Assembly (NCBI RefSeq): GCF_022832375.1
Contig: NZ_JALHLG010000003.1
Coordinates: 124,001 to 188,000 of the forward strand
Length of the DNA: 64,000 nucleotides
Direction: 5' to 3'
DNA from: Novosphingobium beihaiense
Lineage (GTDB): Bacteria; Pseudomonadota; Alphaproteobacteria; Sphingomonadales; Sphingomonadaceae
Shown piece after piece: positions 4,739-30,258 of the stretch. The notes beneath the pieces were generated by a model. It saw only the letters and a program-made list of their open reading frames with translations. It searched no databases and had not been told where the DNA came from. The position numbers and the translations under genes are program-made. Each line of letters starts with the position of its first letter. The first letter of the stretch is position 1.

Positions 4739-5548
4739 TTACTTCCCCTGTGCAATCGCGGATTGGGACGTGTTCGCAGCCATCGCTGCCCCCGAAGCGG
4801 CCGAAACCGGATGGGTGTTTTCCAGCACCGCGCTAGCCTTGCCCGAACGCAGGATGATCTTGCTGGGCACATCGGGCAGCACGATCGTGGATTCATGCAC
4901 CGAATAGTTGACCGGCCCTTCCTCGCCCTTCTCGTTCTCGATCAGGATGGCGGGAACTGCCGATTTCTCGGGCCAGACGAGGTATGTGGAATTGCCATCG
5001 TCATAGATGCGCGCGGGCAGCAGCTTGTCCGAACCCGAGCGCTTCCAAGCGAAATTCAGCTTCGCCGGATCGGCGGGCACGGCCATCGGATCGCCCGACG
5101 CCAGCGCTTCTTCCATGGGATTGAGCGCAGCCACGGCCGCGCCCGGAACAGGTGCCGTCTTCGGCTCGTCCTTGTAAGTGAAGCGCAGCATATAAAGCGG
5201 CTTGGACTTGGGCGAGGCCACGAGATCGAAGAAATAGGTATGGCGGTTGGTCACGACCGTCATATTGGTGCGCGCCGCCGTTTCGAGCGGCTTCACGAAC
5301 AGCAGATCCGCCCGCTTGTTCGGCGTGATCTGCCACGCCTGGGAATCGCCCACCGCCACATTCTCGATCGATTCGCCGTCGCCAAAGGCAATCGCGGCCT
5401 GGATACCCGCCTTGCCATCGATCCGCACCACTTCATTGTCGCTATAGGCGTGATCGACCAGGCGTGGATCCTCAGCCTGCGCCGGAACGGCCAGGGCGAG
5501 CAGAACAGGCGCGAGCAGCGCGGCGCGCGATACCATGGCGCGGGTCAT
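4739..5548 (-). CDS. virB9: VirB9 / TrbG-type T4SS outer-membrane-complex protein
   Basis: Periplasmic component that forms the outer-membrane core with VirB10. The 269-residue protein has a signal peptide (MTRAMVSRAALLAPVLLALAVPAQA, about 25 residues). A VirB9 N-terminal domain follows (ITPNKRADLLFVKPLE, NMTVVTNRHTYFFDL), then the C-terminal domain that binds VirB7/VirB10 in other systems (DDGNSTYLVWPEK, PVNYSVHEST). The reading frame stays open far upstream, but the signal peptide and the four-base ATGA overlap with the virB6 stop fix the start at 5548. No VirB7 lipoprotein gene is seen beside it. Confidence 0.9.
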   Translation of the reverse strand: MTRAMVSRAALLAPVLLALAVPAQAEDPRLVDHAYSDNEVVRIDGKAGIQAAIAFGDGESIENVAVGDSQAWQITPNKRADLLFVKPLETAARTNMTVVTNRHTYFFDLVASPKSKPLYMLRFTYKDEPKTAPVPGAAVAALNPMEEALASGDPMAVPADPAKLNFAWKRSGSDKLLPARIYDDGNSTYLVWPEKSAVPAILIENEKGEEGPVNYSVHESTIVLPDVPSKIILRSGKASAVLENTHPVSAASGAAMAANTSQSAIAQGK

Positions 5549-6777: not shown

Positions 6778-6782
6778 ACCGC

Positions 6783-9203
6783 TTACTCGGCCGCCTCAAT
6801 CCAGAGCTGGCCGTCTTCGGCATCGCCCGGCCACTGCATGCCGGTGAGCACCGGATACCAGACCGCCGGATCGTCCCCGTAACTCTCGCGAAGCTGATCG
6901 AGCTTGCGCACCGTGCTTTCGCGGCCGGAGAGAACCGTGAGCACTTCGGGCATGCCCGAAAGATCGAGCCGGACCACCACCGAGGCATCCGACTGGCGAA
7001 TCAGGAAGCAGCGCGATTGCGCGGGCAGCGTACGGATCACATCCAGCTCGTGCTGCGTCAGGCCGAAGCCTTCGCAGTAATCCTCATACCGCGCGCGGGC
7101 ATTGGGCATGAACACCATCGTCGCGGTCTGTTCGACCAGCGCGGTTGCGATCTTGCTGTCCAGCGCATCGCGGGCCGACTGGGTGGCGAAACCCACCAGC
7201 GCATTGCGCTTACGCAGCGTCTTCAGCCAGTCGCGGATGCGCGCGGCGAAGACCTCGTCGTCGAGCGCTTTCCAGCCCTCGTCGATCAGGATCATCGTCG
7301 GCTCGCCGTCCAGCCGTTCCTCGATGCGGTGGAACAGGTACATCATGACCGGCGTGCGCAAGCGCGGGCTTTCGAGCAGCGCGGTCATGTCGAAACCGAG
7401 CACGCGGGCGGAAAGGTCGAGCTGATCGTGCTGGTTGTCGAACAGCCAGCCGTACTCCCCGCCTTCGATCCAGGCATCGAGCCGCGAGGCGAGATCGCCC
7501 GGCTCGGGACGGCGCGCGCCCGCCAGCAGTTCACGGAAGTGCGAAAGGCGGCGCAGCGAGGGATCGTTGTGATAGGCCGCGTCCACCGCATTGGCGATCG
7601 TCGCCAGTTCCTCCGGCCCTCTCGCTTCGAGCAGCACGCCCAGCCAGTCGCGCAGGAACGCGCGGTTGGTGGCGGAGTCGGGCAGCGAGAGCGGGTTGAA
7701 GCCGGTGGGATAGCCGGCGGCAATGCGGCTGTAGGTGCCGCCGATGCCGCGCAGAAACACTTCGGCGCCCCGGTCCTTGTCGAACAGGATGGTGCGCGGC
7801 GCGAACTTCTGCGCCTGGGCGGCGAGGAAGTTCATGACCACCGTTTTACCGGAACCCGACGGACCGATGACGGTAAAGTTACCGAGATCGCCCTGGTGGA
7901 AGTTGAAGAAGAACGGCGTCGAGCTGGTGGTGGAGAGCAGCGTGACCGCATCCCCCCAGTGATTCCCGCTCGCCTGCCCCATGGCAAAGCCGTGAAGGCT
8001 GCCGAAACAGGCCATATTGGCGCTCGAAATCATCGCCCGGCGGACAATGAAGCTCTCGTTCCCGGGCATCTGCCCCCAGAACGCAGGCTCCAGGTTCACG
8101 TCCTCGCGTACGGCGACGGCCCCGGCATCGGCCAGCGCGGCGGCACACGAAGCGGTCACTTCGTCCAGCGATTCGAGCGAATCGGCCCGCACCAGCACCG
8201 AGAGGTGATGATCGCCAAAGCCCACCGAGCCGGTGCCCAGTGCATCGCGCGCGGAACTCATTTCACGCCGTTCGGCCACGGCTTCCTCGTCCGCCGAGCG
8301 CAGGCGGCGAATGGCGAGATCGATGCGTTCGCGCGCGATCTGGCGGTCGCTGGGCGCGTAACTCTCGGTCAACACCAGTTCGCAAGGCAGGCGCAGCAGC
8401 GCGTCGGTCAGGCCCGGCGCAGTCGAATCGGGATAGTCCTTCAGGCTCACGATCGAACCGACCGTGCCGCGCCCGTTGGCGCCGCGCAGCTCCAGCGCGT
8501 CCATGCCGAAATTGATGCGGCGGTAGCCCAGCATATGGCCGACATCGGCATCCTCGGCAGGACGGCGCACCGGGCGCATCTCGCCGTTGTAAAGCGCGCT
8601 CAGCAGTTCGAGCACTTCCGAACAGGTGCCGGCCTGCCCTTCGTAATCCCCCAGCAGCCTTGCGCCATAGGCCCCGAGCGAGGCGGCCATGGCGCTGCCC
8701 GCAGCGCGCAAGGCCCGCACGTCGGCCGGATCGGCCTCTTGCGGGGCATAGCCCTTGTTCTTCATCATGCGCGAGAGCTTGTCCGCCCAGCCCGCCTTGC
8801 CGCGCGCGGGGCGGCGCACCAGGGTAATGAACTGGTCGTTGACGAAGAGCGCGCCGGAGCCCGTCCGCGCCCGCCAGCGTGCATCGATATGGGCGGCCAG
8901 AGGATCGTCGAAATGGCCCTCCATCTCGATTTCCACGCGGCGGCGGATCACGTGATGATAGAGCACGAACCGCGCATCGAGCGTGGAGCGCAGCAGCACC
9001 TCGCGCGTGGCGACATGGGCGTTAAGCTCGTCGGTATCGGCGGTTTCGAAGGCAAGCCCCGGCACCATCAGCGAGAACATCACCGAACCGTCGCGCAGCA
9101 GCAGGACGTTCTCGTCCACCAGCGCCGCATAGGGCAGCCGGTCGCCCACCAGCACTTCCCGGGCGCCCCAGCCCTTCAGCGGCGATTTCCTGCTCTTGCT
9201 CAT
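6783..9203 (-). CDS. virB4: VirB4 / CagE-type secretion ATPase
   Basis: Large energising ATPase of type IV secretion. The 806-residue protein shows the CagE/TrbE/VirB4 N-terminal domain (GDRLPYAALVDENVLLLRDGSV) and a Walker A motif GPSGSGKTVVMNF near residue 446. A Walker B-like ILIDEGWKAL and the C-terminal block LRKRNALVGFATQS follow. Length is normal for VirB4, with no VirB3 fusion, because virB3 is a separate gene just upstream. The ATG has a purine-rich GGGGGAC site two bases before it. Confidence 0.95.
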   Translation of the reverse strand: MSKSRKSPLKGWGAREVLVGDRLPYAALVDENVLLLRDGSVMFSLMVPGLAFETADTDELNAHVATREVLLRSTLDARFVLYHHVIRRRVEIEMEGHFDDPLAAHIDARWRARTGSGALFVNDQFITLVRRPARGKAGWADKLSRMMKNKGYAPQEADPADVRALRAAGSAMAASLGAYGARLLGDYEGQAGTCSEVLELLSALYNGEMRPVRRPAEDADVGHMLGYRRINFGMDALELRGANGRGTVGSIVSLKDYPDSTAPGLTDALLRLPCELVLTESYAPSDRQIARERIDLAIRRLRSADEEAVAERREMSSARDALGTGSVGFGDHHLSVLVRADSLESLDEVTASCAAALADAGAVAVREDVNLEPAFWGQMPGNESFIVRRAMISSANMACFGSLHGFAMGQASGNHWGDAVTLLSTTSSTPFFFNFHQGDLGNFTVIGPSGSGKTVVMNFLAAQAQKFAPRTILFDKDRGAEVFLRGIGGTYSRIAAGYPTGFNPLSLPDSATNRAFLRDWLGVLLEARGPEELATIANAVDAAYHNDPSLRRLSHFRELLAGARRPEPGDLASRLDAWIEGGEYGWLFDNQHDQLDLSARVLGFDMTALLESPRLRTPVMMYLFHRIEERLDGEPTMILIDEGWKALDDEVFAARIRDWLKTLRKRNALVGFATQSARDALDSKIATALVEQTATMVFMPNARARYEDYCEGFGLTQHELDVIRTLPAQSRCFLIRQSDASVVVRLDLSGMPEVLTVLSGRESTVRKLDQLRESYGDDPAVWYPVLTGMQWPGDAEDGQLWIEAAE

Positions 9204-9227
9204 AAGTCCCCCATCCCCGCTTGCTGC

Positions 9228-9509
9228 TCAGGGTGCGTAGCTGTTGCAGCCCCAGCGCTTCCAATTGGCAACGCGCGGGCACTTACTGACTTTGGCGATC
9301 CACAAGTCAAACACGCGCGGCTCCCGCAAGCAAGCGAGATAGCCCACGCCATGAATCACCGCCGCTGCGGGCAAGGCCCAGAAGCTCTTGGTGATGAGGA
9401 AGATTTCCGTCGTCACCGCGGCATTGATGATGAAATAGCTATAGGTGACACCCGCGAACATCTGCGGCCGCGTCAGCGCGCGATGGACGGGATAGCGGGC
9501 GAGCCCCAT
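9228..9509 (-). CDS. virB3: VirB3-type T4SS inner-membrane protein
   Basis: Small partner of VirB4 in pilus and channel assembly. The 93-residue protein has the VirB3 N-terminal signature VHRALTRPQMFAGV and then two hydrophobic stretches (YSYFIINAAVTTEIFLI and SFWALPAAAVIHGVGYLACL). Its C-terminal tail is DLWIAKVSKCPRVANWKRWG. The position between virB2 and virB4 is the standard order. Preceded by GGGGCGG eight bases or so before the ATG. Confidence 0.9.
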   Translation of the reverse strand: MGLARYPVHRALTRPQMFAGVTYSYFIINAAVTTEIFLITKSFWALPAAAVIHGVGYLACLREPRVFDLWIAKVSKCPRVANWKRWGCNSYAP

Positions 9510-9519
9510 CAGCCGCCCC

Positions 9520-9864
9520 TTAGCCTACTGCTGCCTGCTGAATGCCCGACACGATCGCGCCGGCACCGAACAGGATGAACACGCCGATGATGACCGTGGC
9601 GCCGAAGCGCCAGTTCAGGCGCCCCGTCAGCATCATGAAGCCGACGGCGGCCACCGCCATGACAGCAACCGCCGTGGCGACATTGCCCAGCAACGTGCCC
9701 TGCAGCCAGCCGAGAGCCGCCACGATCGGGCCGCTGCCCGCCGGATCATTAGCAACCGTCTGCGCCTGCGCGCCCATCGGGGCCAGCGCCGCGAAAACCG
9801 TAGCAAAAGCACTGAAAACACCGCCACGCTTGCGGCGCGAAATCTGAACGTATCGAATCACCAT
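9520..9864 (-). CDS. virB2: VirB2-type pilin
   Basis: Major pilin of the VirB system. It has a signal peptide ending at APMGAQAQ and then the usual two hydrophobic helices (VATAVAVMAVAAVGFMML and VIIGVFILFGAGAIV) joined by the short basic loop TGRLNWRFG. A longer frame from 9885 exists, but a GGAGGG site lies just before the ATG at 9864. The GTG at 9861, five bases past the site, is an equally good start. First gene of the virB cluster. The roughly 240 bases between it and the next gene upstream hold no recognisable gene; an AT-rich stretch near 10029-10040 is the only promoter-like sequence. Confidence 0.88.
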   Translation of the reverse strand: MVIRYVQISRRKRGGVFSAFATVFAALAPMGAQAQTVANDPAGSGPIVAALGWLQGTLLGNVATAVAVMAVAAVGFMMLTGRLNWRFGATVIIGVFILFGAGAIVSGIQQAAVG

Positions 9865-10108
9865 GCCCTCCGTATGAGCGCCCATTGCGCTATACTAATG
9901 ACAGGTATGTGACGATAACACGGCCAATCTTACACACGTGGAGCAAGCGTTTTCATCCTGCAGCACTGTAAAAGCGCAGAGGACGCCGGTTTCCACCAGC
10001 GCCCTCACCCCCGGCAAAAGCCTTCGCATATTTATATAGAACGCAACCCGAAGTGCAGCGGGACAAACGTGCGCGAAATCTCAATCCCAGACGATATCTG
10101 GGCGATAC

Positions 10109-10486
10109 TCAGCGCGAAGCCTGCGCGTTCGCGGACAGCAGCCTGTTGAGCGCAGTGCGCGCCGCCAGACGCGAATCCATCCAGGAACCGTCAGCCAATT
10201 CCAGCTCATACCGGTCGGAACTCGCCATTGCCGCGCGGTAAGATACGATGGCCTTGTCGGTCCGGCCTGCGGCTGCATAGGCAGCCCCCAGATTGATCAG
10301 TGCGGCAGGATCGCCCGCACGCACGGCGCTACTGGCCTCCAGTTTCCGCAAAGCCGCATCGGAGCGGCCACTGGCCAGTTCTTCATAGGCAACGTCCTGC
10401 ACCTTGCTGGCGGCAGGTGCTTCCACCGCAAGCGAGAAGGCGGACTGGCCAAGCAGTGCGGCGGTCATAAGGGCAGTAAGGGACAC
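10109..10486 (-). CDS. Small exported TPR-like protein
   Basis: Function unknown. About 125 residues with a probable signal peptide (start VSLTALMTAALLGQSAFSLAVEA). The rest is helical and resembles a short tetratricopeptide array: DVAYEELASGRSDAALRKLE and DPAALINLGAAYAAAGRTDKAIVSYRAAM each look like one repeat. GGGAGA lies six bases before the GTG at 10486, which favours it over the GTG at 10492. Divergent from the lipoprotein/TonB-receptor pair; the 294 bases between them carry several PhoB-box-like arrays, so shared phosphate control is possible. It could act as a periplasmic scaffold. Confidence 0.65.
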   Translation of the reverse strand: MSLTALMTAALLGQSAFSLAVEAPAASKVQDVAYEELASGRSDAALRKLEASSAVRAGDPAALINLGAAYAAAGRTDKAIVSYRAAMASSDRYELELADGSWMDSRLAARTALNRLLSANAQASR

Positions 10487-10563
10487 GGTCACTCTCCCGG
10501 TTTAGCTATCGATTGCAATGTATCCTCCACTTCCCGGGGCGATTTCGCAACAAAATGACGCAA

Positions 10564-10704
10564 GTGTCATAAAACTGCAATTTAATCGTGAATCGGCGGA
10601 AAAACCGCGAGTCGCGGAAGGCACACCACTGCCTGCGCACCGATGGTCATATTCAAGTCATATAAGTGAATATTATTGTCACTGTAGCGCCAACAAACTG
10701 TCAC
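10564..10704 (+). promoter_or_regulatory. Cluster of Pho-box-like direct repeats upstream of lipoprotein/TonB-receptor genes
   Basis: Three groups of 7-base half-sites with 4-base spacers, the layout of PhoB boxes. Group 1: GTGTCAT at 10564, CTGCAAT at 10575 and TCGTGAA at 10586. Group 2: TGGTCAT at 10644 and AAGTCAT at 10655. Group 3: TTGTCAC at 10676, a degenerate GCGCCAA at 10687, and CTGTCAC at 10698. Each step is exactly 11 bases. Group 3 ends 76 bases before the lipoprotein GTG. The orientation points to the plus-strand genes, though the divergent small gene could also respond. Confidence 0.72.
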
Positions 10705-10780
10705 CCCTGCCGCCTAGAGGCCCCTGCAACGAGGTGTGGAATCGCCGCCTCGTCCGCGACTCGAACACGGGGGAAACTAC

Positions 10781-12367
10781 GTGAAGAAAATTTCCGGTCT
10801 GCTGCTTGTTGGTTGCAGCGCTCTCGCTCTCGCCGGCTGCGGCGCTGATGATATCTCTTCGCCGGGTGCCGGCAGCATCACTGTCAACAACCCGGCCCCG
10901 ACTCCGGCTCCGACCCCCACGCCGACATCCGGCACGGTCACTGCCGCGGCCGACTGCCCCGCGATCGGCGCGACGACCCAGCTCAGCAACGACGGCACGA
11001 TCAGCGGTCCCGAAGGCACCTGGCGCGTTTGCACCCTGCCCGCGCTGATCGATGCGGACACCACGCTGCCGAAGATCGACGGCCTGCTCTATCGCCTTCA
11101 CGGCCGCGTTGACGTTGGCTGCGATGGCGGCTTCAACGCCCCCGCCACCGGCGCCGCCTACACCACGACGACCGCAAGCTGCAACGGCCGCTCGCTGACG
11201 TCGGACACGAACGTTACCCTGAAGATCAACCCCGGCGTCATCGTCTATGGCGAAAACGGTTCGGAAGCCGCCTGGCTCGCCGTCAACCGCGGCAACAAGA
11301 TCGACGCGCAGGGTACTGCCGCCCAGCCGATCATCTTCACCAGCGCGCAGAACGTGCGCGGCGAGAACGATGACACCGCGCAGGGCCAGTGGGGCGGCGT
11401 CGTCCTGATGGGCCGTGGCACCGTCACGGACTGCACCGTGGGTTCGATCGCCAACAGCAACTGCGAGCGCGACACCGAAGGTTCGGTCAACCCCGCCCGT
11501 TTCGGCGGCAACGACAACACCTACGACGCCGGCACCATGCGGTACTTCCAGATCCGCTACTCGGGCTACGTCCTGGGTTCGGACGTGGAACTTCAGTCGC
11601 TGACCGCAGAAGGCGTGGGCAGCGGCACGACGCTGGAATACTTCCAGAGCGTGAACAGCTCGGACGACGGCGCCGAGTTCTTCGGCGGCAACGTGGGCTT
11701 CAAGCACTACATCTCCGTGGGTGCCGACGACGACAGCCTCGACCTCGACACCGGCCTCCAGGGCAAGTTCCAGTACCTGCTGCTGCTGCAGCGCGACGGT
11801 GACGGCGACGCCCTGATGGAAATCGACAGCAACGGCGCCGAAAGCGACACCCCGCGCCAGAAAACCATCATCGCCAACTTCACTGGCGTTCAGCCCAGCG
11901 CGAACAACAACAGCGACGATGCTGCCGTGCTGATCCGCGGCAACTCGGACATCACCTGGGTCAACGGCATCCTCAACGTGCCGAACAACGAGTGTCTGCG
12001 TCTGAACGGTTCGGGCACCACCCCGGCCACTCTCACCGCCTACTCGACGGTGATGACCTGTAACGCTGCCAAGTACCTTGGCACCGGCTCCTACAGCGTC
12101 ACCGACACCCAGACCCAATTCGGTTCGGGTGCGAACGGCAACGACGACTCGTTCACTTCCACGCTGACTGACGCCTTTGTGAACGGCACCAACGAAAGCG
12201 GTGTAAGCCCGTTCGACGCCAGCACGCTCGACTCCTTCTTCGACACCACCGACTACATCGGCGCGGTCAAGAATGCGGCCGACACCTGGTATCAGGGCTG
12301 GACCTGCGACAGCTCGATCGCCGAATTCGGCTCGGGTGAAGCTTGCACGGCGCTGCCCACCACCTGA
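10781..12367 (+). CDS. Beta-helix-like surface or periplasmic lipoprotein paired with a TonB receptor
   Basis: Biochemical function unknown. The GTG start at 10781 follows GGGGGAAAC and gives a 528-residue lipoprotein (VKKISGLLLVGCSALALAGC, lipobox LAGC with Cys near residue 20). A Pro/Thr-rich linker (PAPTPAPTPTPTSG) comes next. The body has the pattern of repeated short strands seen in right-handed parallel beta-helices, including VIVYGENGSEAAWLAVNRG, AQPIIFTSAQN, GQWGGVVLMGRG, YFQIRYSGYVLG and DDGAEFFGGNVGFKHYISVG. Very similar repeats occur in uncharacterised lipoproteins of Bacteroidetes and other gammaproteobacteria that also sit beside TonB receptors (recalled, not searched). Asp-rich segments (GADDDSLDLDTG) suggest metal binding. 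Pho-box arrays lie upstream. Confidence 0.8.
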   Translation: MKKISGLLLVGCSALALAGCGADDISSPGAGSITVNNPAPTPAPTPTPTSGTVTAAADCPAIGATTQLSNDGTISGPEGTWRVCTLPALIDADTTLPKIDGLLYRLHGRVDVGCDGGFNAPATGAAYTTTTASCNGRSLTSDTNVTLKINPGVIVYGENGSEAAWLAVNRGNKIDAQGTAAQPIIFTSAQNVRGENDDTAQGQWGGVVLMGRGTVTDCTVGSIANSNCERDTEGSVNPARFGGNDNTYDAGTMRYFQIRYSGYVLGSDVELQSLTAEGVGSGTTLEYFQSVNSSDDGAEFFGGNVGFKHYISVGADDDSLDLDTGLQGKFQYLLLLQRDGDGDALMEIDSNGAESDTPRQKTIIANFTGVQPSANNNSDDAAVLIRGNSDITWVNGILNVPNNECLRLNGSGTTPATLTAYSTVMTCNAAKYLGTGSYSVTDTQTQFGSGANGNDDSFTSTLTDAFVNGTNESGVSPFDASTLDSFFDTTDYIGAVKNAADTWYQGWTCDSSIAEFGSGEACTALPTT

Positions 12368-12372
12368 TCGGG

Positions 12373-12402
12373 GACCGCCCGGAACATAGGGAGGGGGCGG
12401 TC
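12373..12402 (+). other. Stem-loop between lipoprotein and TonB receptor genes
   Basis: GACCGCCC at 12373 pairs with GGGCGGTC at 12395 around a 14-base loop, right after the lipoprotein stop. No T-run follows, so it is more likely an mRNA-stabilising or partly attenuating hairpin than a full terminator. It could set the ratio of lipoprotein to receptor. Confidence 0.55.
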
Positions 12403-12455
12403 GCTTATGGCCGCCCCTTCATTGCATTCAAAACCTGTTTTCAGGGGGAATTTAG

Positions 12456-15122
12456 ATGACCAAGCCGCGGCTAGTCTCGCTGCTGCTGCTTTCCACGTCG
12501 ATGCTTGTGCCGTCTCTGGCGCACGCGCAGGAAAGCACTCCGCCCGCCGACACAAGCACCCAGTCCTCCGCATCCGAAGCAGAAGACGCCCAGGACGATA
12601 CTCCCGACGTCTCCTTGCCCGGCGGTGAAATCATCGTCACCGGCAACCGCAAACGCAACATCGAGCAATATGCGCCGCAGGTCGTTTCCGTCCTTTCGAG
12701 CGCGGAAATCGCCCGCACCGGCGAAGGCGACATTGCCGGCGCTCTGGGCCGCGTGACCGGTCTTTCGGTTGTCGGCAACGGCTATGTCTACGTCCGCGGC
12801 CTGGGCGACCGCTATTCGCTGGCACTGCTCAACGGTTCGCCGCTGCCAAGCCCGGAACCACTCAAGCGCGTCGTTCCGCTCGATCTGTTCCCGACCAGCG
12901 TCATTGCCTCCTCGCTGGTGCAGAAGAGCTATTCGGTCAACTTCCCCGGCGAATTCGGCGGCGGCGTGATCAACCTCACCACCAAGGCCATTCCCACCGA
13001 GAGCTTCCTGACCATCGGCGGCGGCATCGGCTGGGACAGCGAGAGCACCAACAAGCTCGGCTATACTTACTACGGCAGCAAGACCGACTGGACGGGCTAC
13101 GACAACGGCAACCGCAACAAGTCGGTCGAACTCAAGCAGTACCTGAAGAGCGGCACGCTGCTCGACGGTTCGAGCGATGAAGCCAAGGCGATCGGCAGCA
13201 CCCTGATCAACGGGCGCAACGCCGTGGTCCAGACCGAAAAGAACCTGCCCGTCAACTTCTCCGGAAGCCTTTCGGCAGGCACCAGCTTCGACATGGGCGG
13301 CGCAACGCTGGGCGTGATCGGCGCGGCTGGCTACTCGAACAAGTGGCAGACCAAGGACATCACGCAGCAGCGCGTTGCCGGCCTTGAAGCCGATCAGTTT
13401 GCCCGCAACTTCCGCAATGTCGTTACCGACAACCACATTGTCGTCAACGGGCTGCTCGGGCTCGGGCTCGAATGGGGCGAGAACCAGCTGCGCTGGACCA
13501 ACCTCTATATCCACGACACCATCAAGCGGGCTGGCCTGCGCTCCGGCCAGCAGGACAACAATACCACGATCGACTATCTGTATCAGGATACCGGCTGGTA
13601 TGAACGTCAGCTCTTCGACACCCAGCTCGTCGGCGAATTCAAGTTTGGTGGCGACACGGAACTCGACTTGCGCGGCGGATACGCGAAATCGAAGCGCGAT
13701 GCGCCTTACGAGATCGAATTCCAGTACGTGCGCCTCAATTCGGGCGGCCCGTTCGGCGATTCCTACGTCAACCGTCTGGACGGCGGCAACCAGGGCGATG
13801 CCCGCGTGGCCTTCTCCAAGCTTGACGAAGATGTCTGGTCTGCCGGTGCCGACCTCTCGCACACGTTCGGGCCGGGCTGGACGGGCACGGTGGGCTATGC
13901 CTACCAGCTCAACGACCGCAGCACCTCGCGCCGCGCTTTCCAGTTCCGCGCCGCGGGTGACAACAACCTGATCTCGTCGTTCGGCCTGCTGCGTCCGGAC
14001 GTTCTGTTCCAGCCGGGCACCTTCTACGTCGACGACGTGGCCGGCCTGAACTATTCGATCCTGACCAACGAGATCGACTTTGGCGGCGCCGCCTTCGACG
14101 CATCGCTGAACAACCACGCCTGGTATGCCAAGCTGGCCGGTCAGCTGACGGATGCCCTCTCGTTCGATCTGGGCGTGCGTTGGGAATATGCCAACCAGAA
14201 GGCGGCCGTGGTCCCCGTCACCGGCACTACGACCTCGATCCCCGATACCGAACTCGAAAACGAGTACTGGCTCCCGGCACTCACCCTCACTTACGAAGTC
14301 CAGCCGGGCATGCAGGTCCGGGTCAGCGCCTCGAAAACGATCGCACGCCCGCAGTTCCGCGAGCTGCTGTACCAGACCTTCTTCGATCCGGACAGCAACC
14401 GCAGCTACCGGGGCAACCCGCTGCTGAAAGACAGCCAGCTGTACAATGCCGAAGGCCGTTTCGAATGGTACTTCGACCGTGACCAGCGGGTATCGGTCGG
14501 CGTGTTCTTCAAGCGCCTCGACAACCCGATCGAAACCTACCTGACCGACGTCAACAGCTTCATCACCAGCTATGCCAATGCACCGAAGGCTGACCTCTAC
14601 GGTGCCGAAGTCGAGCTGCAGAAGTACTTCGACCTGTTCGCCGACCGTCGCCTGCTGATCGGGGCGAACTACACCTACACCAAGTCGAAGATCAAAGTTG
14701 GCGCAAGCGACACCACGGACGTGTTCGGTGCTCCGAATTCCCCGGCCAGCGCCTACTTCCGTGATGGATCGCCGCTGACCGGCCAGTCCGAGCATATCGC
14801 CAACGTCCAGATCGGCCTGGAGCAGCAGGGCGGCCTGTCGCAGCAGACCTTCCTGTTCAACTATGCCAGCAAGCGTTCGATCAGCCGCGGTCTCGCCAAC
14901 TCCGGGCAGCCGGACTACGTCGAGAACCCCGGCCTCACCATCGACTTCGTTGCGCGCCAGGGCATCTATCTGGGCAGCAAGGAAATCGAGCTCAAGCTTG
15001 AGGCCCGGAACATCACCGGACGCAAGCACGAAGAATACCAGCTGCTTCCGACCGGCCGGATCGACGTCAACACCTACGACGTCGGCCGCGTGTTCTCGGC
15101 ATCGGCTTCGATCAAGTTCTAA
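12456..15122 (+). CDS. TonB-dependent outer-membrane receptor
   Basis: Outer-membrane active transporter of 888 residues; substrate unknown. It has a signal peptide of about 26 residues ending SLAHAQ and a Ser/Asp-rich spacer. The plug domain starts at GGEIIVTGNRKRNIEQYAPQ. Conserved plug segments include VYVRGLGDRYSLALLNGSPL and FPGEFGGGVINL; the 22-strand barrel ends in VFSASASIKF with the usual terminal Phe. The ATG has GGGGGAATTTAG before it and lies 88 bases after the lipoprotein gene in the same direction. The pair with a beta-helix lipoprotein and the upstream Pho boxes suggest uptake of a phosphorus compound; that is inference. A terminator follows. Confidence 0.9.
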   Translation: MTKPRLVSLLLLSTSMLVPSLAHAQESTPPADTSTQSSASEAEDAQDDTPDVSLPGGEIIVTGNRKRNIEQYAPQVVSVLSSAEIARTGEGDIAGALGRVTGLSVVGNGYVYVRGLGDRYSLALLNGSPLPSPEPLKRVVPLDLFPTSVIASSLVQKSYSVNFPGEFGGGVINLTTKAIPTESFLTIGGGIGWDSESTNKLGYTYYGSKTDWTGYDNGNRNKSVELKQYLKSGTLLDGSSDEAKAIGSTLINGRNAVVQTEKNLPVNFSGSLSAGTSFDMGGATLGVIGAAGYSNKWQTKDITQQRVAGLEADQFARNFRNVVTDNHIVVNGLLGLGLEWGENQLRWTNLYIHDTIKRAGLRSGQQDNNTTIDYLYQDTGWYERQLFDTQLVGEFKFGGDTELDLRGGYAKSKRDAPYEIEFQYVRLNSGGPFGDSYVNRLDGGNQGDARVAFSKLDEDVWSAGADLSHTFGPGWTGTVGYAYQLNDRSTSRRAFQFRAAGDNNLISSFGLLRPDVLFQPGTFYVDDVAGLNYSILTNEIDFGGAAFDASLNNHAWYAKLAGQLTDALSFDLGVRWEYANQKAAVVPVTGTTTSIPDTELENEYWLPALTLTYEVQPGMQVRVSASKTIARPQFRELLYQTFFDPDSNRSYRGNPLLKDSQLYNAEGRFEWYFDRDQRVSVGVFFKRLDNPIETYLTDVNSFITSYANAPKADLYGAEVELQKYFDLFADRRLLIGANYTYTKSKIKVGASDTTDVFGAPNSPASAYFRDGSPLTGQSEHIANVQIGLEQQGGLSQQTFLFNYASKRSISRGLANSGQPDYVENPGLTIDFVARQGIYLGSKEIELKLEARNITGRKHEEYQLLPTGRIDVNTYDVGRVFSASASIKF

Positions 15123-15168: not shown

Positions 15169-15204
15169 GGCCCGGCTGCAATCATGCGGCCGGGCCTTTT
15201 TTTT
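15169..15204 (+). terminator. Rho-independent terminator after TonB receptor
   Basis: GGCCCGGC at 15169 pairs with GCCGGGCC at 15189, loop of 12 bases, followed at once by eight T. It closes the lipoprotein/receptor unit before the manganese riboswitch. Confidence 0.92.
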
Positions 15205-17705: not shown

Positions 17706-18380
17706 CTACACCGCGTCGAACACATATCCCAGCGAGCGTACTGTGCGCAGCGGATTACCCGCTCCTGCGCTTTTGAGGGCGCGGCGCAGACGGCCAATCC
17801 ATACATCGACGGTGCGCTCGTCCACCGGCGGTTCCTGCTTGCCGAGCGCGGCGATAAGCTGCCCCCGGCTGAACACGCGCCCCGGATGCTCGATGAAATA
17901 GCGCAGCAGGCGCAGTTCGTTGGGCATCAGCGGGATCGGCTTGCCCTGCCAGCGCGCCTGGAACGCCGCAACATCCACCGTAAGATCGCCTTGCGCGACC
18001 ATACGGATGCCCGCACTGTCCTGATCGCCCAGATTGGCGCCCAGCACCCGGTCGAGCAGCGCGGTACGGGTGAGCGGACCGACCATATAGTCGTCCGCGC
18101 CCATGCGCAGCGCGCGCTTGCGGTCCTCCAGATTGTCTTCCTCAAGCACCATGGTGACATGGGCATGGGCCGTCAGCGGATCGGCGCGCAGGCGGCGGCA
18201 CAGCTCCAGCCCCGACATTTCGGGCAGAACCCAGTCGACGAAGATCCACAGTGCCCCTTCGATCAGGGGAAGTTCGGCGAAATCCGTCCAACGGTGCAGG
18301 ACAACGTCGAATTCGTCATGCCGGAAAGCTGCCAGCCCTCCGGAAAGCTCACTGGCCAGTAATATATCGATCCGCCGCAT
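17706..18380 (-). CDS. PhoB-like winged-helix regulator with atypical receiver
   Basis: OmpR/PhoB-type DNA-binding regulator of 224 residues. The C-terminal winged helix (RLLRYFIEHPGRVFSRGQL, DERTVDVWIGRLRRAL, RTVRSLGYVFD) is close to that of the phoB product encoded at 24712-25398, including the recognition region. The N-terminal receiver keeps the phosphoacceptor position (D49 in FVDWVLPEMSG). The switch Thr is Leu (L79), the invariant Lys of the KPF motif is Gly (G101 in VGPL), and the N-terminal acidic pair is altered. Phosphorylation control is therefore doubtful. Start ATG 18380 begins MRRIDILL. Its promoter region carries four Pho-box half-sites. Confidence 0.85.
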   Translation of the reverse strand: MRRIDILLASELSGGLAAFRHDEFDVVLHRWTDFAELPLIEGALWIFVDWVLPEMSGLELCRRLRADPLTAHAHVTMVLEEDNLEDRKRALRMGADDYMVGPLTRTALLDRVLGANLGDQDSAGIRMVAQGDLTVDVAAFQARWQGKPIPLMPNELRLLRYFIEHPGRVFSRGQLIAALGKQEPPVDERTVDVWIGRLRRALKSAGAGNPLRTVRSLGYVFDAV

Positions 18381-18423
18381 TGCCCCTGCCCGGTTAACTT
18401 GGCGGGCTGTCTGCCCTCCGATT

Positions 18424-18463
18424 ATGACGAACGGGTGACGTATCGGTGACGGGAGTGTGAAAA
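18424..18463 (-). promoter_or_regulatory. Four-repeat Pho-box array in front of the PhoB-like regulator gene
   Basis: On the minus strand, four 7-base half-sites with 4-base spacers: TTTTCAC, CCGTCAC, ACGTCAC and TCGTCAT. Their plus-strand starts are 18457, 18446, 18435 and 18424, an exact 11-base period. The array ends 43 bases before the ATG at 18380, a normal position for a PhoB-activated promoter. Confidence 0.75.
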
Positions 18464-18490
18464 CTTCTATCCCGCAGCCGCGTATGTGGA

Positions 18491-18519
18491 TTGTCATTGA
18501 ACTGACCCGCAAACGTCAC
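18491..18519 (+). promoter_or_regulatory. Pho box upstream of plcP-agt
   Basis: TTGTCAT at 18491, CTGACCC at 18502 and ACGTCAC at 18513: three half-sites, 11-base period, plus-strand orientation. It ends 59 bases before the plcP ATG. It lies only 27 bases from the oppositely oriented array serving the divergent regulator. Confidence 0.72.
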
Positions 18520-18578: not shown

Positions 18579-19493
18579 ATGCGAACCGACATGGATACTC
18601 TTCTCGATCAGTACACCCGCCCGGCGGCCGGTATTCCAGCCTGGCTCGACCTTCCCGATCCCAAGGGCTTTCGGCCCAAGCGCAAGTACCGCACGATCTG
18701 GATTTCGGACATCCACCTCGGCACGCGCGGCTGCAACGCGGCGTTGCTGGTCGATTTCCTGCGGTCGGTTGAGTGCAAGACGCTCTATCTGGTGGGCGAC
18801 ATCGTCGATGGCTGGCGGCTGCGCAAGGGCTGGTACTGGCCCGATGCCCACAACGAAGTGGTGCGCCGCATCCTGAAAATGGCGCATCGCGGCACCCGCG
18901 TGGTGTTCATCGCTGGCAACCATGACGAAATCCTGCGTGACTATGCGGGGCTGACTTTCGGCGGCGTCGAACTCGCGCTCGAAGCGGTTCACGAGACAGT
19001 GGACGGGCGCAAGCTGCTGATCACCCATGGCGACGCATTCGATGGCGTCGTGCTCTACCACAAGTGGCTCGCCTTCCTGGGTGACCAGGCCTACGGCATG
19101 CTGCTGCGCGCCAACATCGCCTTCAACGCCGTGCGCCGCCGCCTGAAAATGCCCTACTGGTCGCTTTCGGCCTACATGAAGAAGAAGGTCAAGAACGCGG
19201 TCCAGTACGTGTGCAGCTATGAAGAGGCTGTTGCGTCCGAAGCGGTGAGCCGTGGGTTCGACGGCGTGGTCTGCGGTCACATCCACTGCGCCGAGATCCG
19301 CCAGTTCGGCGGCATCACGTATTATAACGACGGCGACTGGGTGGAAAGCTGCACCGCGCTGGCCGAAGACTTCGAAGGCAACATCGCAATCATCGATTGG
19401 GTCGCCGAGACCGGCGGCCATGCCAGCGAGGTTGCCGTCAGCGAGCTGGGCGCCGCGGCCGCAGCCGAAGCACCGGCTGGAGCAAACGCGTGA
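18579..19493 (+). CDS. plcP: PlcP-type phospholipase C (calcineurin-like metallophosphoesterase)
   Basis: By family and neighbour, cleaves phosphatidylcholine and related phospholipids to diacylglycerol during phosphate shortage. The protein of 304 residues shows the full metallophosphoesterase motif set: SDIHLGTRG, GDIVDGW, GNHDE, THGDAFD and GHIHCAEIR. PlcP resembles LpxH (UDP-2,3-diacylglucosamine hydrolase) and is often annotated so. The translational coupling to a GT4 glycosyltransferase and the Pho box upstream favour PlcP, because plcP-agt pairs are the known lipid-remodelling unit of rhizobia and marine bacteria. ATG 18579 follows GGGGGC; ATG 18591 is an alternative. Confidence 0.85.
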   Translation: MRTDMDTLLDQYTRPAAGIPAWLDLPDPKGFRPKRKYRTIWISDIHLGTRGCNAALLVDFLRSVECKTLYLVGDIVDGWRLRKGWYWPDAHNEVVRRILKMAHRGTRVVFIAGNHDEILRDYAGLTFGGVELALEAVHETVDGRKLLITHGDAFDGVVLYHKWLAFLGDQAYGMLLRANIAFNAVRRRLKMPYWSLSAYMKKKVKNAVQYVCSYEEAVASEAVSRGFDGVVCGHIHCAEIRQFGGITYYNDGDWVESCTALAEDFEGNIAIIDWVAETGGHASEVAVSELGAAAAAEAPAGANA

Positions 19494-24711: not shown

Positions 24712-25398
24712 TCAATTCACGTCCATCGCGTAACCGGCGGCGCGCACGGTGCGGATGGGATCGGTGTCGCCATCGCGGTTGATCGCCTTGCGCAGGCGGC
24801 GAATGTGGACGTCCACGGTGCGCTCGTCGATGTCCGAGTCCATGCCCCAGACGCCATCGAGAATCTGCTGGCGCGAGACAACGCGGTTCGGGCGTTCCAT
24901 GAAATAGCGCAGCAGGCGGAATTCGGTGGGGCCAAGGTGCAGCGGCTCGCCGCCCCGCCGCACGCGGTGGCTGGTGGCGTCCAGCTCGATATCGCCCCAT
25001 TGCAGCACATTGCCTGCCAGCGACGGGCGGGAACGGCGCAGCAGCGCCTCGATCCGGGCCATCAGTTCGCGCGGGGAGAACGGCTTGGTGACGTAATCAT
25101 CCGCGCCGGTCTTGAGCCCGCGGATCATGTCTTCTTCCTCGCCGCGCGCGGTGAGCATGATGACCGGGATCTGCGCAGTCTCCTTGTCCTTGCGCAGCTG
25201 GCGGCAGACTTCGATGCCCGGCACCTGCTCGATCATCCAGTCCAGCACGATGGCATCGGGCATCTGCTCACGCACCATCAGCAGCGCTTCCTCACCATCG
25301 GCGGTGGAACGCACTTCATAGCCTTCGGCGCTGAGATTCCAGGTCAGCAACTCGCACAGGGCCGTATCGTCCTCGACGACAAGAACGGTGGGGTTCAT
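24712..25398 (-). CDS. phoB: Phosphate regulon response regulator PhoB
   Basis: Activator of the Pho regulon, phosphorylated by PhoR. The 228-residue protein has a complete receiver: LVVEDDTALC, phosphoacceptor in IVLDWMIEQVPG, MLTARGEE and DDYVTKPF. The winged helix follows with RLLRYFMERPNRVVSRQQI, DERTVDVHIRRLRKAI and RTVRAAGYAMD. It ends the pstS-C-A-B-phoU-phoB run; its ATG overlaps the phoU stop (ATGA). phoR is 8 kb away, on the far side of the porin genes, on the same strand. Confidence 0.95.
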   Translation of the reverse strand: MNPTVLVVEDDTALCELLTWNLSAEGYEVRSTADGEEALLMVREQMPDAIVLDWMIEQVPGIEVCRQLRKDKETAQIPVIMLTARGEEEDMIRGLKTGADDYVTKPFSPRELMARIEALLRRSRPSLAGNVLQWGDIELDATSHRVRRGGEPLHLGPTEFRLLRYFMERPNRVVSRQQILDGVWGMDSDIDERTVDVHIRRLRKAINRDGDTDPIRTVRAAGYAMDVN

Positions 25399-26090
25399 GC
25401 GCTCAGCCCCGTATCGTCGGTCTGGCTGTCACGCTCGGTGCAGTATTCGCCGGTGGCAGCGTAGTATACCATCTCGGCGACGTTGGTCGCATGGTCGCCG
25501 ATGCGTTCCAGATTGCGGGCGATGAACAGCAGCTGCGCGGCGCTGGTGATGGTGGCCGGGTTTTCCATCATGTGCGTCAACAGCGAGCGGAACAGCGTGT
25601 TGTAGAACTGATCGAGCTTCTGATCGCGCCGGATCACTTCCACCGCCAGCGCCGCATCGCGCGAGCCATAGGCGTTGAGAACGTCGCGCACCATGCTCTC
25701 GGCGATCTCGGCCATTGTCGGCACCAGCGTCACCGGCTCGATCTTGTAGCGCCCTTCCAGCGCATTGACGCGCTTGGCGATGTTCTTGGCATAGTCGCCG
25801 ATACGCTCGATCACACCTGAAATCTTGAGCGCGGCGATCACATCGCGCAGATCGTCGGCCATCGGCGCGCGCAGGGCGATGGTGCGCACCGCAAGGCGAT
25901 CCACTTCGGCTTCCAGCGCATCGAGCTTGGCATCGGCGGCCACGACCCGCTCGGCCAGGTCCTCGTCATGCTGGGTGAGCGCGGTGATGGCATCGCGGAT
26001 GGCCACTTCGGCCAGGCCGCCCATTTCCGCGACGAGGCCGCGAAGCTGGCCGATCTCCGAATCGAATGCCTTGACGGTATGGTCTACCAT
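25395..26090 (-). CDS. phoU: Phosphate signalling protein PhoU
   Basis: Cytoplasmic adaptor that links the Pst transporter to PhoR and damps signalling when phosphate is ample. The 231-residue protein is two three-helix bundles, with PhoU repeats IGQLRGLVAEMGGLAEVAIRD in the first and PTMAEIAESMVRDVLNAYGS in the second. Metal-binding acidic positions are visible in ISGVIERIGDYAKNIAKR and IARNLERIGDHATNVAEM. ATG 26090 begins MVDHTVKAF with AAGGAACACGCC before it; the frame extends further only as an overlap into pstB. Between pstB and phoB. Confidence 0.95.
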   Translation of the reverse strand: MVDHTVKAFDSEIGQLRGLVAEMGGLAEVAIRDAITALTQHDEDLAERVVAADAKLDALEAEVDRLAVRTIALRAPMADDLRDVIAALKISGVIERIGDYAKNIAKRVNALEGRYKIEPVTLVPTMAEIAESMVRDVLNAYGSRDAALAVEVIRRDQKLDQFYNTLFRSLLTHMMENPATITSAAQLLFIARNLERIGDHATNVAEMVYYAATGEYCTERDSQTDDTGLSA

Positions 26091-26103
26091 GGCGTGTTCC
26101 TTC

Positions 26104-26865
26104 TCAGCCGTAGCGGCCGGTAATATAGTCCTTGGTCTTCTCTTCGCGCGGGTTGGTGAAGATCTCGCTGGTCTCACCATACTCCACAAGGTTGCCAAGG
26201 TGGAAGAAAGCCGTGCGCTGGGAAACGCGGGCGGCCTGCTGCATCGAGTGGGTGACGATCACGATCGCATAGTTTTCCTTCAGCTCGTCGATCAGTTCCT
26301 CGATCTTGGCCGTCGCGATCGGGTCGAGCGCCGAACAGGGCTCGTCCATCAGGATCACTTCGGGGCTGACGGCGATCGCGCGGGCAATGCACAGGCGCTG
26401 CTGCTGGCCGCCCGATAGCGCGGTTCCGGCGTCGGAAAGACGATCCTTCACTTCGTCCCACAGGCCCGCCTTGGTCAGCGAGCTTTCGATCACCGCATCC
26501 ATCTCCGCCTTGGAAGAGGCAAGGCCATGAATGCGCGGGCCGTAAGCGATGTTCTCGTAGATCGTCTTGGGAAACGGGTTCGGCTTCTGGAACACCATGC
26601 CGACGCGGGCGCGCAGGGCCACCGGGTCCATCGACGGGGCGTAGATATCCTCACCGTCGAGCAGGATCTCCCCCGTCACGCGGGCCCCGGCGATCGTGTC
26701 GTTCATGCGGTTGAGCGAACGCAGGAACGTCGACTTGCCGCACCCCGAAGGGCCGATGAAGGCAGTGACGATGCCATTGTCGATATCGATCGATACGTTG
26801 TCTATGGCCTTCTTTGGGCCATAGTACACGTCGACGTTGCGGGCTGTAAGCTTGGTTTCGGTCAT
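26104..26865 (-). CDS. pstB: Phosphate ABC transporter ATP-binding protein
   Basis: ATPase of the PstSCAB high-affinity phosphate importer. The 253-residue protein carries Walker [10 protein letters not shown] (39-47), a Q-loop in VFQKPNPFP, the signature LSGGQQQR, Walker [14 protein letters not shown] and the switch histidine in [12 protein letters not shown] 26865 ([16 protein letters not shown]) follows TAGGGAC and lies four bases after the pstA stop; an in-frame upstream start would overlap pstA. Confidence 0.97.
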
Positions 26866-26869
26866 GTCC

Positions 26870-27760
26870 CTACCAGCGCACTTCGAACTTGTTTCGAAGG
26901 TAGATCGCAAGGCCATTCATCACCAGCAGGAAGACCAGCAGGACGATGATGGCGGCGGAAGTGTTCTGGACGAAAGCCTTGTCGATCTCGTCAGACCACA
27001 GGAAAATCTGCATCGGCAGCACGCTGGAAGGATCGGTGACCCCGCCCGGCGGCGTGACGATGAAGGCGCGCATGCCGATCATCAGCAGCGGCGCGGTCTC
27101 ACCCAGCGCGCGGGCCATGCCGATGATGGTGCCGGTGAGGATGCCGGGCAGCGCGAGCGGCAGCACATGGTGGAACACCGCCTGCACCTTGGAAGCGCCC
27201 ACTGCCAGCGCGGCATCGCGGATCGAGGGCGGAACCGCCTTGATCGCGTTGCGGCCGGAGATGACAATGACTGGCATCGTCATCAGTGCCAGCGTCAACC
27301 CGCCCACAAGCGGCGAGGAGCGCGGCAGGTTCAGCGTGTTGATGAAGACGGCAAGGCCCAGCAGGCCGAAGATGATCGAAGGCACCGCCGCCAGATTGTT
27401 GATCGAGACTTCGACCAGCTCGATCCAGCGCGAGCGCGGCGCGAATTCCTCAAGGTAGATCGCCGCCAGCACGCCCATCGGGAACGAGAGCAGCAGCGTC
27501 ACCAGCATCGTCAGGATCGAGCCCTTGGCCGCGCTCCAGATACCGGCCGTGTGCGGATCGGTGGAATCCGAACCTGACAGGAAATTCCAGTTCAGGCCGC
27601 CCAGCCCGTTGTGCATCATGATGAACAGCAGCAGCGCCAGAAAGGCGAGGCTGAGCACAATGGCGCCCAGGCCGATGAGCTTGAAGCGGCGCTCTGCCGC
27701 GTGGCGGCGGGCCAGGCGCTTCGCGAACGCCGGCGAGCTGAAAGTGGAGTTATTACTCAT
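26870..27760 (-). CDS. pstA: Phosphate ABC transporter permease PstA
   Basis: One of the two transmembrane subunits of the Pst importer. The 296 residues show six hydrophobic spans, from [20 protein letters not shown] to [22 protein letters not shown] (cut here). The EAA-type coupling loop is [20 protein letters not shown]. The N-terminus is short and basic. Overlaps the end of pstC by eight bases. Confidence 0.95.
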
Positions 27761-29126
27761 AAGCTTCGCGGAACCGTTTGACGACGCGCAGGGCGATGAT
27801 GTTGAGGATCAAAGTGACGATGAACAGCACCAGCCCCAGCGCGAAAGCGGAGAGGGTCTTGGGGCTGTTGAACTCCTGATCGCCCGTCAGCATCTGGACG
27901 ATCTGGTAGGTCACCGTGGTCATCGAGGCGAGCGGGTTGGCGCTGAGACGCGCAGAGGCACCGGCGGCCATGACCACGATCATGGTCTCACCGATCGCAC
28001 GGCTGATCGCCAGCATCACACCGGCGACGATGCCGGGCAGCGCGGCGGGCAGCAGCACTTTCTTGATCGTTTCCGAACGGGTCGCGCCCAGTGCCAGCGA
28101 ACCATCGCTCATCGCGCGCGGCACGGCGGCCAGCGCATCGTCGGCCATCGAGGAGACGAAGGGGATGATCATCACGCCCATGACAAGGCCCGCGGCCAGC
28201 GCGCTCTCGGTCGAAGGGTTGGCGACGCCGAGCGAAGCGGCGGTGTCGCGGATCAGCGGCGCCACCGTCAGCGCGGCGAAGTAGCCGTAGACCACCGTGG
28301 GAATACCGGCGAGGATTTCGAGGATCGGCTTCACCCATTTGCGGATCGTGCTCGATGCATATTGCGTGAGGTAGATCGCGCTCATCAGCCCGAGCGGGAT
28401 CGCCACGATCATGGCGATGATCGCACCGATATAGATCGTGCCCCAGAACAGCGGCACCGCGCCGAAGTTGCCATCGATATCGACGCCGCGCGCATTGCCC
28501 GGCGCCCAATGGGTGCCGGTGAGGAAGGCGATCGGGGATACATCCTTGAAGAACAGCCCGGCCTCGAACAACAGCGAGGCAACGATGCCGAACGTCGTCA
28601 GGATCGCCATCAGCGAGGCAATCAGCAGGAGCGCCAGAATCGCCCGTTCGACATGGGTCCGCGCCGGGAAGCCCGCACGGACGCGGGTGAAGCCGTAGCC
28701 GCCGCCCGCCAGCGCGACGATCAGCACCAGCAGCGCACCAATCGCACTGAAACGCCCCTGTGCCGCGCGCATCGGCTTGGCCAGTTCCTCGGCCAGCGGA
28801 TCGAAAGCCACGGCGTCTGGATTGGCGGCAAGGTTGCGGGCATCGGCCAGCACCGCCGCCCGGTGCATGTCACCGGCGGGAAGCTGCACAGCGGCTGGAT
28901 CGGCCATGACGGCCCCATCGACGAGCCCGGGCATGATCATCGACCATGCAGACCAGGCCAGCAGCGCCGGAACCAGGATCCACAGCGCCATGTGCCAGCC
29001 GTGGTAGCCAGGCATCGAATGCATCGATCCCCGGCCGGTATAGAGCAGCCGGGCCCGGCCCCGTGCGGCAAACCAGCCGACAAGGCCCAGGCCGATCACG
29101 GCCAGGAGAACTCCTGAGAGAATCAT
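27753..29126 (-). CDS. pstC: Phosphate ABC transporter permease PstC with N-terminal extension
   Basis: Second permease of the Pst importer. At 457 residues it is well above the roughly 320 of E. coli PstC. The extra part holds two hydrophobic segments (about 2-19 and 45-65), then some 60 polar residues (PGLVDGAVMADPAAVQLPAG onward) and a third span, before the standard permease core begins near THVERAILALLLIASLMAIL. The core has the coupling loop LALGATRSETIKKVLLPAAL. The extension is typical of several alphaproteobacterial PstC proteins and may form a periplasmic loop with a sensing or docking role. Confidence 0.93.
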   Translation of the reverse strand: MILSGVLLAVIGLGLVGWFAARGRARLLYTGRGSMHSMPGYHGWHMALWILVPALLAWSAWSMIMPGLVDGAVMADPAAVQLPAGDMHRAAVLADARNLAANPDAVAFDPLAEELAKPMRAAQGRFSAIGALLVLIVALAGGGYGFTRVRAGFPARTHVERAILALLLIASLMAILTTFGIVASLLFEAGLFFKDVSPIAFLTGTHWAPGNARGVDIDGNFGAVPLFWGTIYIGAIIAMIVAIPLGLMSAIYLTQYASSTIRKWVKPILEILAGIPTVVYGYFAALTVAPLIRDTAASLGVANPSTESALAAGLVMGVMIIPFVSSMADDALAAVPRAMSDGSLALGATRSETIKKVLLPAALPGIVAGVMLAISRAIGETMIVVMAAGASARLSANPLASMTTVTYQIVQMLTGDQEFNSPKTLSAFALGLVLFIVTLILNIIALRVVKRFREAYE

Positions 29127-29168
29127 AACTGGCCGTAACGTCCTTTACTTCTGGGCATTCAGGCTTGC

Positions 29169-29191
29169 GGGGCAGCCCGGCGGGCCGCCCC
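29169..29191 (-). other. Stem-loop between pstS and pstC
   Basis: GGGGCAGCCC at 29169 pairs with GGGCCGCCCC at 29182 (one mismatch) with a three-base loop. It lies just after the pstS stop on the minus strand and has no T-run. Such hairpins commonly protect the abundant binding-protein mRNA and reduce transcription into the permease genes. Confidence 0.6.
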
Positions 29192-29214
29192 TGCGCACAA
29201 AGTGTCTGCGGATC

Positions 29215-30258
29215 TTACTTCAGCACGCTCGGATCGAGCGGCGTCATGTTGGCAATGACCTCGGCATTCTTCTTGCGCACGTCTTCGGTGGCAATGATCA
29301 TGCCCTTCGGCTTGAGGTAGCCATCGGGGCCCCAGGCCTGGGTCCAGGCCTCGGCATAGGCCTTGAGGTCCTTGATCGGGCCGAGGTGCTGCTTCTTGAT
29401 GTAGATGTAGAGCGGACGCGCGCCGGGATAGCTGAAGTTCGCAATGGCGTCGTAAGTCGGCTTCACGCCCGAAAGCGGGATGCCGTTCAGCGTGTTGATG
29501 TTCTCTTCCAGATAGGAATAGCCGAAGATGCCGATGGCCTTGGGGTTCTGCGACAGCTTCTGAACGATCAGATTGTCGTTCTCGCCCGCATCCACATAGG
29601 GACCGTCCTCACGGATGTCGTGGCAGACCGCCTCGTACTTGTCCTTATCGCTCTTCTTGAGCTCGCCCATTGCCGGGTCGGTATCGCAGCCGGCCTGCAG
29701 GATCAGCTCCTTGAGCGCATCGCGCGTGCCCGAAGTCGAGGGCGGGCCGTAGACGAGGATCGGCTCGGCGGGCAGCGAAGGATTCACATCCTTCCAGGTC
29801 TTGGACGTGTTGGGCTTGCCGAACGGATTGGCGGCCAGCGCCTTGTAGATATCGGTCGGGGTCAGCTCGAAGCCAGGCCCCTTCTTGTCTTCGGCGAAGG
29901 CGATGCCGTCGATGCCGACCTGCACTTCGACGATGTCGGTCACACCGTTCTTCTGGCACAGTTCGTATTCCGACTTCTTCATGCGGCGCGAAGCATCCTC
30001 GATGTCGGGATTCTGAGCACCGATGCCCGCGCAGAACAGCTTCATGCCCGCGCCGGTGCCGGTCGATTCGATGACCGGAGACTTGTGTCCGGACTTGGCG
30101 AACTCTTCCGCCACGGCGGTGGCGAACGGATAGACCGTGGAAGACCCCACGGCCGTCACGTAATCGCGCGCACCGGAACCGGATCCGCCCGAGCCGCCGC
30201 AGGCGCTGAGCGCGAGGACGGAAACGGCAGCGAAGATGAATGTGTTGGTCGAACGCAT
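29215..30258 (-). CDS. pstS: Phosphate-binding lipoprotein PstS
   Basis: Captures phosphate in the periplasm for PstCAB. The 347-residue protein has a lipoprotein signal (lipobox LSAC, Cys 20), then a Gly/Ser linker. The PstS fold follows with the phosphate-contact segment GSSTVYPF (about 38-45), ESTGTGAGMKLFCAG and PPSTSGTRDALKEL. AAGGGG lies seven bases before the ATG, and a three-repeat Pho box lies 48 bases upstream. First gene of the pst run. Confidence 0.96.
   Translation of the reverse strand: MRSTNTFIFAAVSVLALSACGGSGGSGSGARDYVTAVGSSTVYPFATAVAEEFAKSGHKSPVIESTGTGAGMKLFCAGIGAQNPDIEDASRRMKKSEYELCQKNGVTDIVEVQVGIDGIAFAEDKKGPGFELTPTDIYKALAANPFGKPNTSKTWKDVNPSLPAEPILVYGPPSTSGTRDALKELILQAGCDTDPAMGELKKSDKDKYEAVCHDIREDGPYVDAGENDNLIVQKLSQNPKAIGIFGYSYLEENINTLNGIPLSGVKPTYDAIANFSYPGARPLYIYIKKQHLGPIKDLKAYAEAWTQAWGPDGYLKPKGMIIATEDVRKKNAEVIANMTPLDPSVLK

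Follow-up and report, generated by a model that had tools for sequence, protein, structure and literature searches.

A Pho-box-preceded lipoprotein and TonB-dependent receptor pair of the ElpS/CC0171 type in a sphingomonad, a candidate system for phosphorus uptake

The window analysed, a 64 kb stretch of the Novosphingobium beihaiense genome, carries on its forward strand a gene for a predicted 528 aa ElpS-family lipoprotein (10781..12367), with a GTG start and a lipobox, LAGC, ending at Cys20. It is followed on the same strand by the gene for its CC0171-like partner, an 888 aa TonB-dependent receptor (12456..15122) with the Plug and beta-barrel domains (Pfam PF07715 and PF00593), in agreement with a preliminary description of this DNA that had placed a lipoprotein before a large TonB receptor. 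The receptor also matched TIGR01782, at a score below the cut-off. The same description had listed an intergenic hairpin and a strong terminator as closing the unit, and both structures are present: an RNA hairpin with a 12-bp stem at about 12391..12420 (+; fold z −2.8) and an intrinsic terminator with a 12-bp stem and T8 after the receptor gene (15169..15196, +). However, the hairpin is situated in the gap separating the genes and lacks a T run, and hence is not a terminator in its own right. Divergently from the intergenic region upstream of the lipoprotein gene, a small TPR protein with weak TPR scores is encoded at 10109..10492 (−), and it is a conserved neighbour of the pair.

As had been anticipated, further members of a local Pho regulon are found in the window, namely a phosphate-selective porin, a histidine kinase and a pstSCAB-phoU-phoB operon (24712..30258, −) in which pstS is preceded by a Pho box; the canonical phoB of this operon (24712-25398) scores above the family cut-off. 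A second PhoB-like response regulator, with a degenerate receiver, is encoded at 17706..18512 (−) and is a neighbour in about half (about 30) of the family loci. It keeps the phospho-acceptor Asp, but Leu replaces the switch Thr, Gly replaces the conserved Lys, and Thr stands at the position of the first acidic residue in most cases; it is a candidate for a phosphorylation-independent Pho modulator. Beside it, a PlcP-like phosphoesterase and a family 4 glycosyltransferase (18579-20560, +) likely form a lipid-remodelling pair; PlcP together with a glycosyltransferase is known as a lipid-remodelling pair of phosphate starvation. No good Pho box was found in the short gap upstream of these two genes.

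Comparison with known systems showed that the window pair is the sphingomonad form of an already described and partly studied pair, ElpS/CC0171, which is related to FI, FII and FIII of Flavobacterium johnsoniae. In Caulobacter crescentus elpS (cc0170) is followed by cc0171 and lies upstream of type II secretion genes, and relatives were reported in Sphingopyxis (then Sphingomonas) alaskensis, Xanthomonas, Hyphomonas, Shewanella and Bacteroides (PMC2996285). Like ElpS, the window protein is a lipobox lipoprotein without any known sequence domain (no match in Pfam, NCBIfam or among PDB sequences), with a TonB-dependent receptor encoded immediately downstream and a phosphate-starvation context; its target membrane is taken from the relatives. 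It is 35-41% identical over most of its length to members from Caulobacter sp. (L134), Brevundimonas and Xanthomonas (L128). The link to CC_0170 is drawn through homologous neighbours in Caulobacteraceae and through the published gene order, C. crescentus itself not being among the 80 listed loci mentioned below. The preliminary description had regarded the lipoprotein as belonging to an uncharacterised group that is paired with TonB receptors in other phyla; the pairing was found in Bacteroidota and Gammaproteobacteria, but the family had been described before, as ElpS/CC0171 and FI-FIII, and is known to be induced by phosphate starvation in those cases.

To follow the pair through other genomes, we used the lipoprotein as a query and obtained matches, mostly full length, in 86 of 120 genomes of the family. 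The receptor gene lies directly 3' of the lipoprotein gene in 59 of the 60 family loci examined and in at least 76 loci of named genomes (76/80 among the matches listed); three of the four listed loci without this order are short contigs. Plasmid-borne pairs occur in Pseudoalteromonas, where exbB, exbD and tonB genes adjoin, and in Indioceanicola, Parabacteroides and Hymenobacter, so that the pairing spans phyla. Homologous pairs in Caulobacteraceae, Xanthomonas and Sphingopyxis show the published order, and the pair is found directly upstream of type II secretion (gsp) genes in Caulobacter sp., Brevundimonas, Phenylobacterium, Xanthomonas, Luteimonas and Sphingopyxis; such genes adjoin it in at least 40 of the 80 listed named loci. 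This accompanying trait does not define the family, and many true homologues are without it. The window pair differs from ElpS/CC_0171 in this respect, since it lies between a VirB-type cluster and the PhoB-like regulator, and no type II secretion genes were found in the 64 kb. A scan of the genome for secretins gave only weak secretin-domain matches and no close type II secretin, suggesting that release into the medium as in Caulobacter may not occur here. At other loci pst, phoU or phoB genes (L055, L068, L082, L157, L161, L171) or the PlcP/glycosyltransferase genes (L166, L167, L193) directly adjoin the pair, which is independent support for a phosphate role.

The region between the TPR and lipoprotein genes (10493-10780) was scanned with a model of the CTGTCAY half-site at 11-nt spacing, the weights of which come from the general alphaproteobacterial consensus and were not fitted to these data. 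All three groups of 7+4 spaced half-sites noted beforehand (10564, 10644 and 10676) were recovered on the forward strand. The distal box, GTGTCAT aaaa CTGCAAT (10564..10581), scores 15.3 bits, this best single pair having a shuffle P of 0.0015, and is followed by a weaker third half-site at 10586; the middle box, TGGTCAT attc AAGTCAT (10644..10661), scores 10.9 bits; and the proximal half-sites, TTGTCAC and GCGCCAA caaa CTGTCAC (10676..10704), score 8.4 bits at 10676 and 9.0 bits at 10687. The summed score of the region was matched by none of 2000 dinucleotide shuffles, and the groups form the highest-scoring 150-bp one-strand cluster of 11-nt-spaced repeats in the whole window. Without conservation, only the box at 10564 stands out individually, and the other single boxes would not.

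Conservation of the arrays upstream of orthologues was evident. A score of at least 13 bits at 11-nt spacing was reached by 45 of 58 upstream regions from the same family, as compared with 8% of control windows of matched GC content taken from the same loci and a mean of 3/58 for permuted motifs. At the other spacings from 7 to 18, between 0 and 20 of the 58 regions reached this score, the higher counts at spacings 8 and 9 being without explanation. The orthologue boxes are mainly oriented with the lipoprotein gene (40 forward, 7 reverse), and in a wider set 29 of 68 upstream regions reached 13 bits versus 3% of random windows. In most family orthologues an equivalent of the distal box is located at about −180 to −260, and relatives have counterparts of the middle box, resembling YTGTCAYnnnnCGGTCAT, at about −126 to −154. 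In aligned relatives the best-conserved part is the proximal element, TTGCAAAGAAACTGTCAC, then CCGCCTAG, and the distal box is also kept; the window's own proximal element, GCGCCAACAAACTGTCAC, is degenerate. An alignment of five relatives places CCGCCTAG at 10710..10717 (+), 3' of the proximal box, as a candidate core promoter element that could serve as the −10 element, and the proximal half-sites are most likely an activator site adjoining the core promoter. Taken together, the conserved 11-nt direct repeats and the neighbourhood strongly support Pho control of the pair.

The three conserved groups suggest that the two genes share one promoter here, whereas cc0171 was expressed alike in rich and poor medium, unlike elpS (PMC2996285), and this reported constitutive expression weakens the case for a shared promoter. 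Also counting against Pho control, the upstream regions of Brevundimonas and of a Caulobacter sp. MAG contain almost no Pho box under this motif model, although C. crescentus elpS itself is induced by starvation. Our literature search yielded nothing usable on expression of the pair in sphingomonads.

The beta-helix-like character ascribed to the lipoprotein in the preliminary description was upheld by structure prediction. The AlphaFold model (pLDDT 86.9) is a beta-rich solenoid, and VIA-align 2 matched it to parallel beta-helix enzymes and tailspikes with Z values up to 22.7 over about 284 residues, at about 10% identity, while Foldseek alone gave no match with E<0.001. The fold is thus predicted to be a pectin-lyase-like right-handed parallel beta-helix, as in alginate epimerases and lyases, GH28 polygalacturonases and tailspike depolymerases, from which the protein differs in having no match to a family profile. 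An assignment to GH28 was not adopted, as there is no Pfam match and the resemblance is one of fold only; nor was one to any other known enzyme family, given that neither Pfam nor NCBIfam matched and that the structural matches span many enzyme classes without choosing among them. A SusD-like protein was likewise rejected, since there is no Pfam match and the model is a beta-rich solenoid instead of the SusD helical repeat fold. The SusD/SusC and PusD/PusC systems are therefore alike only in working principle, a surface lipoprotein with a TonB-dependent transporter. FI-FIII, reported as ElpS relatives, share the pectin-lyase-like fold, and FI and FII lie in clusters with induced receptors (PUSIII/PUSIV; PMC8115612). 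They belong to another phylum, have another gene order and are expected to carry a different tether sequence.

The Asp-rich loops described earlier proved to be real and invariant in 49 aligned homologues drawn from Sphingomonadales, Caulobacterales and Xanthomonadales. E233, E270, D295, D296, E299, D317, D321, D323 and E347 are identical in all of them, position 318 is always D or E, and eight cysteines are likewise fully or almost fully conserved. Conserved basic residues are few, so a metal-mediated ligand site appears likelier than direct binding of phosphate. A further conserved element is the tether motif CGADDISSPG (10838..10867, +), directly 3' of the lipidation site, in which Cys20 and Ser27-Pro28-Gly29 are invariant in 49/49 homologues, while the linker after it is variable. 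The motif was absent from the Pseudoalteromonas and Bacteroidota homologues examined, and the exact SPG motif was not found in the other lipoproteins sampled. Lipoproteins retrieved by N-terminal similarity are not homologues and share only the lipobox and a Pro/Thr-rich linker.

From these results we consider it probable that the window encodes a PhoB-induced surface lipoprotein that binds, and possibly cleaves, a phosphorus-containing ligand, together with a receptor that imports the product. Regulation and pairing are the well-supported parts of this reading. Phosphate-starvation induction has been demonstrated by others in relatives: Caulobacter ElpS is produced only under these conditions and is a surface-exposed outer-membrane lipoprotein whose release depends on type II secretion (PMC2996285), and FI, FII and FIII are strongly induced by phosphate depletion (PMC8115612). 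In the sphingomonad, PhoB encoded about 10 kb away would bind the three Pho-box groups under phosphate starvation and turn on both genes from one promoter, and the intergenic hairpin would probably allow more lipoprotein than receptor to be made. Anchored in the outer membrane and facing outwards, the lipoprotein would most likely hold metal ions along the invariant acidic row of its beta-helix and would bind, or possibly cleave, a phosphorus-containing polymer or complex, the released product of which the receptor would import with TonB energy. The earlier suggestion that the pair takes up or processes an organic or complexed phosphorus source appears reasonable. Counting against this reading, purified ElpS was without phosphatase activity and the Caulobacter work demonstrated no import (PMC2996285).

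It is quite possible, though we lean against it, that the lipoprotein is an enzyme, or an enzyme activator, and not the receptor's binding partner. It would act on a polymer of the cell surface or the environment (a glycan, a teichoic-like polymer or a nucleic acid) and free phosphate esters from it, with the receptor importing either the product or something else. The structural matches are mostly polysaccharide lyases, epimerases, polygalacturonases and phage depolymerases, the invariant acids are placed about one turn apart (D295/D296, then D317/D318/D321), and FI-FIII were modelled as polygalacturonase-like (PMC8115612). Overproduction of ElpS led to higher extracellular alkaline phosphatase activity; however, purified ElpS had no phosphatase activity of its own (PMC2996285). 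A common fold, moreover, does not show a function, and the lack of any Pfam or NCBIfam enzyme family match also speaks against a catalytic role.

We regard as distinctly unlikely that the pair takes up, in place of phosphorus, a metal or metal complex required during phosphate starvation, such as the iron or calcium used by PhoX and other phosphatases. Metal complexes are the classical cargo of TonB receptors, the many invariant acids and scarce conserved basic residues of the binding face fit metals more readily than bare phosphate, and Pho control is compatible with such a support role. Against this, Caulobacter elpS does not respond to iron, iron limitation did not induce the Flavobacterium relatives (PMC8115612), and the neighbours are phosphate and lipid-remodelling genes, with no metal genes among them. 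Still less probable is that the Pho boxes have decayed or drive only the divergent TPR gene, the pair being controlled otherwise, for instance by the neighbouring atypical regulator: the intergenic region is indeed common to a divergent conserved gene, the middle and proximal boxes are individually weak, and the regulator, which has a DNA-binding domain like that of PhoB, is conserved beside the pair, but the boxes are present also in loci with no TPR gene detected nearby, lie mainly on the lipoprotein strand, and include a proximal element that holds its position in aligned relatives.

Phosphorus binding and import under PhoB control remains our preferred reading, and it can be elaborated into a scheme that is rather unlikely as a whole. 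An acid-rich, metal-bridged beta-helix groove would capture phosphorylated polymers for the TonB receptor, the CGxDDxxSPG tether would act in Proteobacteria as a surface-sorting or receptor-docking signal in place of the Bacteroidota lipoprotein export signal, and the non-canonical PhoB-like neighbour would fine-tune those same Pho boxes with no need for ordinary phosphorylation. A sorting or docking role for the tether is a guess on our part. We found no description of either the tether motif or the degenerate PhoB-like neighbour in the literature searched; the SPG tether, the family-wide acidic ladder and the conserved PhoB-like neighbour with its degenerate receiver may be new details, and the tether and the regulator are specific leads open to test. 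A phosphate-starvation-linked pair of surface lipoprotein and receptor spans Proteobacteria and Bacteroidota, and the sphingomonad locus, as a compact version controlled by Pho boxes, makes substrate, metal dependence and surface export of the lipoprotein testable.

Two further observations concern individual loci. One homologue (L103, 8790-11684, minus strand) has 965 residues and two tandem ElpS-like domains, and adjoins a receptor gene and type II secretion genes. The VirB-type secretion cluster of the window (2597-9885, −) encodes VirB2, VirB3, VirB4 and a VirB11-like ATPase; many family members keep a cluster of this type upstream of the pair, and in four Phenylobacterium/alphaproteobacterial MAG loci it is found on either side.
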